In this document: positions 28,490-34,106 of the stretch, one piece after another | How positions within the stretch are numbered: the stretch's first letter is position 1 | Layout of the letters: every line of letters begins with the position of its first letter | Assembly: GCA_039545355.1 (NCBI GenBank) | Contig: BCJJ01000021.1 | Coordinates: 372,001 to 436,000 of the forward strand | Reading direction: 5' to 3' | Length of the DNA: 64,000 bases | DNA from: Trichosporon coremiiforme | Lineage: Eukaryota > Basidiomycota > Tremellomycetes > Trichosporonales > Trichosporonaceae | Made by a program: the position numbers and the translations under genes | Notes under the pieces: model-generated | Seen by the model: the letters and a program-made list of their open reading frames with translations, nothing else | What the model was told of the DNA's origin: nothing | Databases searched by the model: none

Positions 28490-29599
28490 TCACTCGAGCT
28501 TCCAGACCTGCTTCTTGTCGAGGCCTAGCTCCTTCAGTGTGCCGGTCAGAGGGCCCTGCTCGAGCGTCGGCGTGAGGGGACCGCAAAGCGGCCCCATGAA
28601 CTTCGGGGGCAGGCAGACGAGGACGCACACACGGCCGGCATCGGCGAGCGCATCAGCCACGTTCTCCTTCTGCACCTGTCCCTGGGGGATACGGTTCACG
28701 TCGAGCTTGTCGCCGTACTTCTGCTGGTGCTTCTTAATGAGCTTTGCGCTCCAGTCGTCACCCTCGGCCGCCTGTGCCTGGAGGAGCTTGTACTTTGTGT
28801 TTCCGACCTTGGCCTTGTCAAGGAGCTGGAGGAAGGGCGCGACGGCCGTGCCAGTGGACACCATGACGACCGTATCGTACTCGTCGGGCTTGATCGAGAA
28901 CGTCGTGATGGGGCCACGGAAACCGGCTTGGTCCCCCTTCTTCAGGCCAAACACCATCCGCCCGAGCTCGCCATTGCGCACTTTCTTGATGACGAGGTTC
29001 ATGCGTCCGTCGCGCGCCACGTCGTTGACGGGCGTGTAGTGCCGCTCGATCTGGATCGCGGGATTGCGCAGCATGACATGCTGGACGACGACAGACCCGT
29101 CGTCGGGCGTCTCGTCCTGCGTCTGCGCCACGAGCGCCTCGTACATCTGCGGCGAAACCGAGTAGATGCTCCCCGTGTACCCGACGTAGGGGAAGGGGAA
29201 GGCGCCCTTTGCGAACTGCCTCGTCTCGGCCGGCAGCAAGCGGACAGAGAGCTCGGCGTGCCGCGGCGACAACAACGTCACGCTGTCGACAGTGTGTTCG
29301 GAGTACTGCGCCGGATTCAGTACCCTCCGCTGCGGGAAGAACCAGTACCCGATGATCGGGAGGAGGGACGCCCACATAATCGTCTTCTGGATACGCGTCG
29401 CGCGCCGCCGCGAGTCCGACTCGTTCTTCTGCCCGCCAGAACCCCCGGACTCCCCGCTCTTTCCTGTCGGGACGGCGGAGCGCGGGAGGGCCCCAAGCGG
29501 TGTCGATTGCGAGAACGCTCGGGCACTGATCGTGGGGCGAACGGCAGATCGGACAGCAAGACGCGCCGTGGCCGTGCTGGGGCCGCGCAGGGAAGGCAT
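28490..29599 (-). CDS. Mitochondrial FAD/NAD(P)H oxidoreductase, Cyc2-like
   Basis: Single-exon gene, 369 residues. The start MPSLRGPSTATARLAVRSAV is a typical Arg/Ser/Ala-rich mitochondrial presequence ending near ARAFSQS. One membrane helix (about 73-88, MWASLLPIIGYWFF) follows. The remainder is a ferredoxin-reductase-type module. RHYTP at 186-190 is the FAD-binding motif, GFRGPITTFS replaces the usual phosphate-binding stretch, and STGTAVAPFLQLL at 248-260 is the NAD(P)-binding loop. The N-terminal anchor plus divergent NAD loop resembles Cyc2, which reduces haem for cytochrome c maturation, more than Mcr1-type cytochrome b5 reductase. Outer-membrane b5 reductase remains an alternative. 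The stop is at 28490, and the convergent upstream neighbour ends 119 bp away at 28370. Confidence 0.78.
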   Translation of the reverse strand: MPSLRGPSTATARLAVRSAVRPTISARAFSQSTPLGALPRSAVPTGKSGESGGSGGQKNESDSRRRATRIQKTIMWASLLPIIGYWFFPQRRVLNPAQYSEHTVDSVTLLSPRHAELSVRLLPAETRQFAKGAFPFPYVGYTGSIYSVSPQMYEALVAQTQDETPDDGSVVVQHVMLRNPAIQIERHYTPVNDVARDGRMNLVIKKVRNGELGRMVFGLKKGDQAGFRGPITTFSIKPDEYDTVVMVSTGTAVAPFLQLLDKAKVGNTKYKLLQAQAAEGDDWSAKLIKKHQQKYGDKLDVNRIPQGQVQKENVADALADAGRVCVLVCLPPKFMGPLCGPLTPTLEQGPLTGTLKELGLDKKQVWKLE

Positions 29600-30607
29600 A
29601 GGTGGTGCGTGGTGTGATGATGCGGAGCGCAAACTGTGCCTCGCAGGCGGGATGGATGATCGTCGAGTGCCCGAAATCTCAGGCCAAGCGCGGACACCCG
29701 CCCAATCTCCACTGACACCCACTCCCCGCACACTGCACGCGCACGCCAAGAAGAGCCAAACTTTAATCCGAGTCCTATAGCCCCGAACCCGTGCCCACCA
29801 CCGCTCGCTTCGCCTGTCTGGCTATCTGGGACTCGTGTAATCACGGTCCTCGCTGAGGCGAATGGCCCGCGACTTATTTGTACGATTGCATACATGATGC
29901 GGGCAAGTCTGGTGCTCCATGCTGGCTCGTGTGCGCGTGGAATGCATGCATCTCGCTCTGTGTCTGTCTGTCTGGTGCCGTAATCGCTGCCCAGTGCGCT
30001 CTCGCCCGCGCGCTCCACGCCGCTACACATCCCCCCTGCTCCGTTTGCGGCCCGGCGCCCCAGCGCACACGCGTTCGCTCCGTTATCTTGGCAACGATTG
30101 CGTTGTCGTGCTCAGAGCTCGGGTCTCGGTTTCTTGCAGTTCCTTGCACTTGCCGCCGGCACGCTCCCCCCGAGCCGAGCGGCATCCCCATGCATTCTAT
30201 CAATCCGAGTGCGTTCCAGAGCCGTGACGCCGTAGTTTAAACCGATCGACTGTGCCTGTGTCCCTTGTGAACTTTGGAGCTGGGCGAGCTGAGCGTCGGG
30301 AACAGTCGGAGATGATAATTGATGGACCCATTCCTCGGGCCTTGCGGCTGGCTTGCGGCCTCGCCGGCCTGGTGATGCCGGGTTAGAAACAATTTTGACG
30401 AGGTACAACCCCCGGTCAGTCACTCCGAGTCAGCCACGCGTACCCGTACCCGTACCCAGTTTTTTGTTGATCCGTTTTCGATTCCGTTCCCCCCAAACCA
30501 AAAGACATGGTCTAATATGTACATCTCGTGTAGGCACGCAATGCAGTTCTACAAGGACAACAGGAGAGGTCCCATGGGCGGCGACCTCGTCAAGCCGAAT
30601 GCGGCGT
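29600..30607. other. Intergenic region
   Basis: About 1 kb between the start of the oxidoreductase gene and the 3' end of the NDUFA4-like gene, both on the minus strand. It includes the oxidoreductase promoter. No coding, RNA or repeat feature was recognised. Confidence 0.45.
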
Positions 30608-31110
30608 TTAAGCAGAGGCCTTGGCGGCCTCCTCCTTACGCTTGGCCCAGAAGTCGGGGTTGTAAGAAAGCTGGAGGGGTTAGCGATCTGTGTGACAAGC
30701 ATTGCCAGACTCGGCGCCACTGATACTCACGAACTTGATGTTCTCGTGCTGCTTGATCTTGTCCCAAGGGCGCTGGTCACCGTGGCGGTTCCAGACGACC
30801 TCAGAGCCCTGCGAGAGGCGGTAAAGGTAGTAGCCAGCACCGACGACGGCACCAGTGACAATGGCGACGATAGGGATGGTCTCGGTGGGGACGTTCTTCT
30901 TGATCCTGGCGAAGACAGACTGAGCTGGTCAGATATATGCGAAAACAAAGCGGAAGGCAGGAGGGAGGCGAAGGTCTGGGCGGCGTGTCGAACAGTGAAA
31001 AGGGGACGCGAAAAGCTTCAAGTCGAGCAAGTCGATGTCGTCGAGAAGGTCGAGGTCGTCGAGAAGGTCGAGGTCGTCGATATGTGGTGGTGGCAGTAGA
31101 CACTTACCAT
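30608..31110 (-). CDS. NDUFA4/MLRQ-type respiratory-chain subunit
   Basis: Small mitochondrial inner-membrane protein of the NDUFA4/MLRQ (B12D) family, associated with complex I or cytochrome oxidase. Exons are 31110-31108, 30919-30731 and 30670-30608, giving 84 residues. The first coding exon is the ATG alone; GTAAGTG follows immediately. The 188-nt first intron ends CTGACCAGCTCAG, and the second intron is 60 nt. One membrane helix is present (IPIVAIVTGAVVGAGYYLY), followed by SEVVWNRHGDQRPWDKIKQ and a charged C terminus ending AKASA. The first intron contains a short tandem repeat. It is head-to-head with the tRNA-synthetase fusion gene, 615 bp apart. The family assignment comes from size, the single helix and the NRHG/PWDKI region. 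Confidence 0.83.
31037..31080. repeat. 18-bp tandem repeat inside the first intron of the NDUFA4-like gene
   Basis: The unit GTCGTCGAGAAGGTCGAG occurs twice in tandem, with a partial third copy (GTCGTCGA), entirely within the 188-nt intron. It accounts for part of that intron's unusual length. Confidence 0.8.
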
Positions 31111-31725: not shown

Positions 31726-34106
31726 ATGTCTGCTGCTGAGCTCGCGTTTGCTCAGGTCCAGGAGGACAAGGCTCCCGCCGTTCCTCTCTCGCCTGAGGCC
31801 GAGGAGCGCTTCAACCGCATCACCCGCAACCTCCAGGAGGTCACCAGCGGTGACATTATCCGCAAGGTCCTCGCTGATGGAGAGACCCCCCGTCTCTACT
31901 GGGGTACCGCGACCACCGGTCGTCCCCACATCGCGTACTGCGTCCCGCTCATGAAGATCGCCGACTTCCTGAACGCTGGCGTCCACGTCAAGATCCTCCT
32001 CGCTGACCTGCATGCCTTCCTCGATGCCAACAAGTCGACCATGGAGGTGCTCCAGTACCGTGTCCAGTACTACTCTCACCTCCTCCACGCCGTCTTCACC
32101 ACCCTCGGTGTCCCGACTGACAAGCTCGAGTTCGTGACTGGTACCAGCTACCAGCTCACCCCGAAGTACACCATGGACATGTACAAGTTCCACGCCCTTA
32201 CGACTGTCAAGGCTGCCGAGCACGCTGGTGCCGACGTCGTCAAGGAGTCTGAGTCGCCCCTCATGTGCTCGCTCCTCTACCCCGGTCTCCAGGCCCTTGA
32301 CGAGGAGTACCTTGACGTCCACATTCAGTTCGGTGGTGTCGACCAGGTAAGCCATTTAGCACTGACCCCAGCTAACAGAAGCGCAAAATCTTTATGTACG
32401 CTGCCCACTTCCTTCCTCGCATGGGTTACGCTAAGCGTGCCCACCTCATGAACGCGATGGTTCCTGGACTCTCTGGAGGCAAGATGTCGTCATCGGACGC
32501 CAAGTCGAAGATCGACTTCCTCGACACCCCCGCCGAGATCAAGTCGAAGCTCAAGGCTGCTCTCTGCACCCCGGGAGAGGTTGAGGGTAACGGTGTCCTT
32601 GCTTTCCTCAAGACTGTCCTGATCCCCGTTCAGGAGCTGCGCGAGGAGCAGGCTCGTGCCCGCGGAGAGGACCGCTACAAGGGCGAGGGCAGTTTCGCCA
32701 CGGCCGACTCGCCCGTCGGAACTCTCTTCTCGATCCCCCGCCCGGAGAAGTACGGCGGTGACATGCACTTCTCGTCCTACCAGGCTCTCGAGGACGCCTA
32801 CGCCAAGGAGGAGCTTCACCCCGGAGACCTCAAGGCCGGTGTCACCGCGGCCCTCACCAACCTCCTCGCTCCTATCCGCAAGCTCTTCGAAACCTCCCCC
32901 GAGTGGCAGGAGGCCGAGAAGCTCGGATACCCCAACGCCTCCGTCGCCGCCGGTGCCGCCCCCGCCAAGAAGGAGCCCAAGGCTAAGAAGCCCCAGAAGA
33001 GCAACAAGCCCCCCACCGAGGAGGAGCTCATCAAGCTTCGTGCCGAGAAGGAGAAGCAGAAAGCTGCTAAGGCTGCCGCCAAGGCCGCCGCTGCTGGAGG
33101 AGCCGCTGGTGCTGCGGCTGGTGCCGCCACCGGCCCCAGCCGTGCCATCCTCAACACCAACATGCCCAAGCTCAAGCTCCTCTCGAAGGGCAAGGTCCGT
33201 GACATTTACGCTCTCCCCGACGCCAAGGATGCAGACAAGCTCCTCTTCGTCGCGACTGACCGCATGAGCGCCTTCGACGTGATCATGAACAACGGTATTC
33301 CCCAGAAGGGTGCCACTCTCACCGAGCTGTCCCTCTTCTGGTTCCACAAGCTCCGCAACGTCATCCCCAACCACGTCCTCACCCCCAGCCTCGAGGGTGC
33401 TTCCCCCGCTGCCCTTAATGGTGTCACCGCCTGGGAGGAGTTCCCCCGCTCTCTGGACGAATACCGTGACCAGCTCGAGGGAAGGAGCATGATCGTCAAG
33501 AAGTGCGAGGTCGTCAAGATCGAGGCCATCGTCCGTGGCTACATCACCGGATCCGCCTGGTCCGAGTACAAGAAGAGCCAGACTGTCCACGGCATCCCCA
33601 TGCCTGCTGGTCTCGTCGAGAGCCAGAAGCTCCCCACGGCCATCTTCACTCCCTCGACCAAGGCTGACCTCGGTGACCACGACGAGAACATCCACCCCGA
33701 CAAGGTCAAGGACATCTGCGGTCCCGAGCTCGCCGCCGAGATTGAGCGCGTCGCTCTCGCCCTCTACAACGAGGCTGCCGCCTACGCCCTCGAGCGCGGC
33801 CTCATTCTCGCCGACACCAAGTTCGAGTTCGGTCTCCTCGACACGCCCAACGGCAAGCAGCTCATCCTCATCGACGAGGCGCTCACCCCCGACTCGTCAC
33901 GCTACTGGGCCGCTGCTGACTACGTGGCCGGCAAGCCCCAGCCCTCCTTCGACAAGCAGTACCTCCGCGACTGGCTCATCAAGGAGAACCTCAAGGGCAA
34001 GGAGGACGTCACCCTCCCCGAGGACGTCGTCTCTGAGACCAAGTCGAAGTACGAGGAGGCGCGGGATCGCGTCATGGGCCGCGGCAAGTTCGCTGCCAAG
34101 AAGTAA
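31726..34106 (+). CDS. Fused tyrosyl-tRNA synthetase / SAICAR synthetase (Ade1)
   Basis: Two enzymes in one frame. Exons are 31726-32346 and 32379-34106; the 32-nt intron joins FGGVDQ to KRKIFMYA, and the product has 782 residues. Residues 1 to about 395 are a complete cytosolic-type TyrRS (tyrosine + ATP + tRNA-Tyr). They show YWGTATTGRPHIAY with the HIGH-equivalent at 67-70, LLADLHAFLD, and KMSSS at 242-246. A Lys/Ala/Gly-rich linker (about 396-468) follows. Residues 469-782 form a complete SAICAR synthetase (purine step: CAIR + aspartate + ATP). It shows KGKVRDIY, ATDRMSAFDVIMNNGIPQKG, the signatures EAIVRGYITGSAW and LADTKFEFG, and LIDEALTPDSSRYW. There is no stop, frameshift or intron-like sequence at the junction. 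The second domain begins MPKLKLLSKGK, like a former stand-alone start, and its length matches free Ade1 (about 306 residues). Animal SAICAR synthetase is fused to AIR carboxylase instead. Confidence 0.95.

Follow-up and report, generated by a model that had tools for sequence, protein, structure and literature searches.

Structure of the gene and its reading frame

The window, a stretch of 64,000 nucleotides, corresponds to C21:372001-436000 of a 42.04-Mb genome assembled into 134 contigs. One gene on its forward strand encodes, in this order, a tyrosyl-tRNA synthetase (TyrRS) of the cytosolic eukaryotic type, a linker rich in lysine, and a SAICAR synthetase (Ade1). Its start codon is the ATG at 31726, and its stop codon ends at 34106 (Table 1). 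Translation of the unspliced sequence meets stop codons, the genomic DNA containing an intron inside the TyrRS part. Based on the window alone the exact splice sites are ambiguous, with four in-frame splits within the scanned range. A second copy of the gene, which is described below, has the donor at the same place, and only one of its two scanned AGs is in frame, resulting in the junction GGVDQ/RKIF. The relatives also show VDQRK in the region of the splice site. Therefore, the intron is placed as given in Table 1, and the spliced product comprises 781 residues with a predicted mass of 85.5 kDa.

Table 1. Features of the TyrRS-SAICAR synthetase gene (positions refer to the window).
Feature	Position	Strand	Description	Basis
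Exon 1	31726..32346	+	Start codon and first 207 TyrRS codons	Translation, splice model
PF00579, class I tRNA synthetase (W and Y)	31882..32867	+	Residues 53-369, split by the intron	174.9 bits (cut-off 21.1); matched by solved structures of cytoplasmic TyrRS
Intron	32347..32381	+	Sole intron, 35 nt, GT...AG, within TyrRS	Homeologous copy and VDQRK in relatives
Exon 2	32382..34106	+	Remaining TyrRS, linker, entire SAICAR synthetase, stop codon	One open frame
Linker	32934..33158	+	Residues 392-466	Limits drawn by us; calculated pI 10.2
Conserved linker segment PTEEELIKLRAEKEKQKAAKAAAKAAAAGG	33012..33101	+	Residues 418-447	Probable helix
In-frame ATG (Met468)	33162..33164	+	Possible internal start just before the SAICAR synthetase domain	
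PF01259, SAICAR synthetase	33180..34010	+	Residues 474-750	245.5 bits (cut-off 20); solved structure 1OBG/1A48 at 1.8e-89

The original prediction had described a continuous frame of 782 residues without stop, intron, or frameshift between the domains. Concerning the junction this is correct, because a single frame is open from 32394 in the middle of TyrRS through the linker to the SAICAR synthetase stop codon, and splicing between the domains is therefore not required. The TyrRS part, however, is interrupted by the 35-nt intron and the product is one residue shorter. That resequencing would reveal a stop codon or frameshift in the linker is improbable in view of the second copy and the relatives.

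The surroundings of the gene contain a tandem array at 31022-31080 with a period of 18 and 3.3 copies of the unit GTCGAGAAGGTCGAGGTC. Further upstream, an open frame of 419 codons on the minus strand (28490-29749) encodes an oxidoreductase FAD-binding domain (PF00970).

The two enzyme domains

At E <= 0.001 the spliced protein matches two Pfam families, PF00579 and PF01259, and no third one. The TyrRS part matches two structures that were deposited as cytoplasmic TyrRS, 1N3L (2.2e-111) and 2DLC (6.7e-111). The predicted HIGH-like motif PHIA is found at residues 67-70 and aligns to PHVA of 1N3L. The KMSSS motif is present as well and aligns to the KMSSS of 1N3L, but it is located at residues 241-245 and not, as had been stated, at 242-246. 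PF01259 is matched almost over its full length (profile positions 2-230 of 233), and the SAICAR synthetase part aligns to 1OBG over 303 of 314 residues (query 4-306). Its motifs KGKVRDIY, EAIVRGYITGS, and LADTKFEFG start at residues 476, 588, and 683, respectively. 1N3L is the human enzyme, and 2DLC, 1OBG, and 1A48 are yeast proteins. Judged by these alignments, both domains appear complete, and the protein would be expected to have both enzyme activities.

A second fused copy in an apparently duplicated genome

The second fused copy is encoded at C13:1438011-1440394 (L011:3512-5895) and has the same open frame. The two proteins are identical at 758 of 781 aligned residues, and about 9.7 kb around the gene are collinear between the two contigs at 84.7% identity. 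The dN/dS ratio between the copies is 0.048 overall, 0.066 for TyrRS, and 0.035 for the SAICAR synthetase; for the linker a ratio of 0.022 was obtained, which is a rough figure given only one nonsynonymous and 13 synonymous differences. Both halves of the protein and the join between them thus look to be under purifying selection.

The remaining synthetase matches in the genome also fall in contig pairs (C5/C17 and C9/C10), and the genome therefore appears to be duplicated. It is probably a hybrid of the kind found in Trichosporonales, of which three species are reported in PMC12820176 and two are described in PMC6642101. The window copy would then be one of two homeologs.

Free copies of the two enzymes had been proposed as the counter-evidence to look for, and the genome was searched with profiles exon by exon and the best candidates were scored; the assembly of 134 contigs is possibly incomplete. 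A free SAICAR synthetase was not found in this search, PF01259 matching the genome at two places, which are the two fusions. PF00579 has twelve matches: each of the fusions accounts for two, C5 and C17 have a single match each, and C9 and C10 have three each. The C5 and C17 matches are tryptophan--tRNA ligases scoring above the TIGR00233 cut-off. On C9 and C10, the one piece scanned per contig narrowly passes the TIGR00234 cut-off (tyrS; 115.5 and 114.1 against 113.8 bits). TIGR00234 represents the bacterial or organelle type of TyrRS, and the enzymes on C9 and C10 are presumed to be mitochondrial. A further TyrRS of the cytosolic type was not detected in this search. In addition to the fused TyrRS, which is of the cytosolic eukaryotic type, the genome thus has a TyrRS of the organelle type encoded elsewhere. 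Separate paralogues of the fused enzymes were not found among the candidates scored, and the view that both functions depend on one locus is supported to this extent, with the qualification that this locus is present twice.

Distribution and origin of the fusion

A search with the whole protein resulted in 1184 matches, of which 120 were listed. Both domains are present in 29 of the matches listed, while the other 91 are TyrRS without SAICAR synthetase, a few of them with further domains. Because 29 of 120 listed homologues have the two domains in the same order, the fusion is not a chance event. An error of the assembly or the gene model that connects two adjacent genes is rejected, since the second copy has the same open frame and the 29 proteins listed from other records have both domains. 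Nothing was found in favour of such an error, and it is regarded as practically impossible.

The double-domain matches comprise 22 named and seven unnamed sequences. All named ones among the matches listed belong to Tremellales or Trichosporonales, namely Kwoniella (8), Cryptococcus (7), Cutaneotrichosporon (2), and one each of Vanrija, Tremella, Naematelia, Saitozyma, and an unnamed Tremellales. The suggestion that the fusion is a lineage marker is borne out to this extent.

The search with the SAICAR synthetase domain resulted in 8000 matches, of which again 120 were listed, and a length limit excluded full-length fusions. The matches listed include the 491-residue P0030 with both domains, four short unnamed sequences that resemble fragments (P0121, P0123, P0126, and P0171), and free SAICAR synthetases of 312-322 residues from Naganishia friedmannii (73% identity), Phaffia rhodozyma (66%), and Mrakia frigida (62%). 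Naganishia belongs to the Filobasidiales. The TyrRS of Naganishia, Phaffia, and Mrakia are absent among the 120 matches listed in the search with the whole protein and among the 120 listed in a further search.

Two trees were computed. The SAICAR synthetase tree has 41 rows, which comprise 19 of the 29 fusion matches, both genome copies, and 20 free enzymes chosen from the domain search, and all fusion rows are found on one side of a branch with support of 48/78, which is present in 52% of 200 bootstrap trees. In the TyrRS tree with 35 rows (14 of the 29 fusion matches, both copies, and 19 sequences without SAICAR synthetase, none from Filobasidiales or Cystofilobasidiales) the fusions are grouped at 100/100. 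The free SAICAR synthetases of Naganishia, Phaffia, and Mrakia suggest that the fusion arose near the base of the Tremellales and Trichosporonales. A single origin at this point would be the simplest reading of the sequences, although it is weakly supported.

The linker

The linkers of 27 relatives were compared with that of the window, P0009 and P0016 of the 29 fusion matches being left out. The core PTEEERAALR..KE.EKAAK is better conserved than the tracts flanking it, which vary in sequence and length. The core pattern, which was written post hoc, matches 28 of 28 linkers and is thus shared by the window protein with the fusions of Cryptococcus, Kwoniella, Tremella, and others; PTEEER is exactly conserved in 25 of the 28, the linker of the window protein having PTEEEL. 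In this genome, a source of the linker was not found beyond the two fusion copies, with nothing below E 0.14 (three matches at E 0.14 to 0.15). The AlphaFold prediction for the relative P0001, for which 24 other alignment rows were used, is a poor model (mean pLDDT 64.6, pTM 0.46) that contains a helix at 422-443 with low confidence. Spacer, tRNA-binding tail, and regulatory element are all possible roles of the linker.

The linker profile matched only three of 133 TyrRS matches without SAICAR synthetase domain. These three are unnamed and fragment-like, resembling pieces of fused genes, and their sequences diverge from that of the fusions directly after GPSxAV. Unnamed fragments (P0240, P0242, P0243, and P0126) suggest that some relatives might have an intron at the junction, which the window gene does not have.

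The conservation of the core and its near restriction to fused genes raise the question whether the linker couples the two activities, so that charging of tRNA-Tyr or the TyrRS dimer would modulate the SAICAR step, or the reverse. With such a coupling the translation status would tune purine synthesis, or purine synthesis translation, across the Tremellales and Trichosporonales. The retention of the fusion in both genomic copies would fit this idea, and a remote analogy might be seen in Bacillus subtilis, where, going by the title of a 1992 paper cited in PMC10912719, adenylosuccinate lyase reportedly regulates glutamyl-tRNA synthetase. However, a spacer or a tRNA-binding tail would be just as likely to consist of a conserved basic helix. 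In addition, losing the fusion needs a fission, which is a rare event, and its persistence can be explained by this rarity and thus does not require any regulatory benefit. Regulatory coupling is therefore considered unlikely.

It could also be imagined that a free SAICAR synthetase is made in addition to the fusion, either because translation also starts internally at Met468 or because the linker is cleaved. The ATG of Met468 has an A at -3, and the junction intron suggested by the fragments for some relatives would also be compatible with a free product. However, the site is Met in only 12 of 30 linker rows, Leu in 17, and missing in one, and a start of the Met468 type can therefore not be general. 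The transcript of the homologous Cryptococcus neoformans gene, according to PMC4301749, matches the whole predicted protein, which argues against a free product as well. Two papers on alternative starts (PMC7049704 and PMC11302930) do not mention the gene in the passages searched. It is thus very doubtful that a free SAICAR synthetase is produced.

A probable bifunctional housekeeping enzyme

The best explanation, to which we assign a probability of roughly 80%, is that the gene encodes a bifunctional cytosolic housekeeping enzyme in which TyrRS and SAICAR synthetase are connected by a basic linker. The N-terminal class I TyrRS would charge tRNA-Tyr with tyrosine, and the C-terminal domain would convert CAIR, aspartate, and ATP to SAICAR in de novo purine synthesis, both being produced from one mRNA as a single polypeptide with a mass of about 85 kDa. 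The fusion would have originated, probably once, near the base of the two orders, when an ancestral TYS1 was joined to an ancestral ADE1, and would then have been inherited vertically. TyrRS enzymes are dimers, and each dimer would accordingly carry two SAICAR synthetase domains. ATP is the only substrate common to the two sites, and independent work of the two activities is therefore the default assumption. The main consequence of the fusion would be a fixed 1:1 dosage of the two enzymes and the dependence of both functions on a single gene. The anchoring of a purine-synthesis enzyme on the translation machinery, as suggested in the original prediction, would be a speculative further effect. 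A deletion made in order to obtain a purine auxotroph would also eliminate the cytosolic TyrRS. The gene unites an enzyme of translation with one of purine synthesis and is a marker of the two orders, to which Cryptococcus and Trichosporon belong.

Comparison with known systems

Animal PAICS resembles the window protein in having a SAICAR synthetase inside a bifunctional protein. Its partner, however, is AIR carboxylase, another enzyme of purine synthesis, while the partner here is TyrRS. An AIR carboxylase domain was not found in the window protein at Pfam E <= 0.001, and the protein is thus not a PAICS. The free Ade1-type enzymes (yeast 1A48/1OBG; Naganishia, Phaffia, and Mrakia) correspond to the SAICAR synthetase domain of the window protein almost from end to end but are without TyrRS in the proteins listed. 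Eukaryotic cytosolic TyrRS are similar in both the catalytic and the anticodon-binding regions, which align at 22-291 and 319-418 to 1N3L and at 24-418 to 2DLC. Human TyrRS has a different C-terminal domain at the place where the window protein has the SAICAR synthetase.

The closest system is a fusion of the same kind, and the assumption that TyrRS-SAICAR synthetase fusions had never been described does not hold. Datt & Sharma reported in 2014 that CNBA1270 of Cryptococcus neoformans, a protein of 819 residues, consists of TyrRS and a C-terminal SAICAR domain, and they named homologues in C. gattii, Trichosporon asahii, and Tremella mesenterica (PMC4301749). The fusion is therefore of a known kind, including a Trichosporon species. 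A later passage of the same paper names the mitochondrial CNBJ0260 as the fusion, which contradicts its Table 3 and its earlier text, and the discussion of the ELR motif there may concern the wrong protein. We found no other description of the fusion in the open-licence literature, nor a functional study of it or of a mutual effect of the two activities; the words "fusion" and "bifunctional" are absent from the searched text of a 2017 review on fungal purine synthesis (PMC5488104).

CNBA1270 and the window protein agree in having TyrRS followed by SAICAR synthetase in one polypeptide, a predicted cytosolic location, and a separate TyrRS, which in C. neoformans is mitochondrial and has 478 residues (PMC4301749) and in the present genome is presumed to be mitochondrial. 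The other Cryptococcus fusions are 69-73% identical to the window protein. The differences are in length, 819 against 781 residues, and in copy number, the window gene being present as two homeologs. Compared to the earlier report, the present analysis adds that both genomic copies are fused, that no free copy was found besides them, and that the linker contains a conserved segment.
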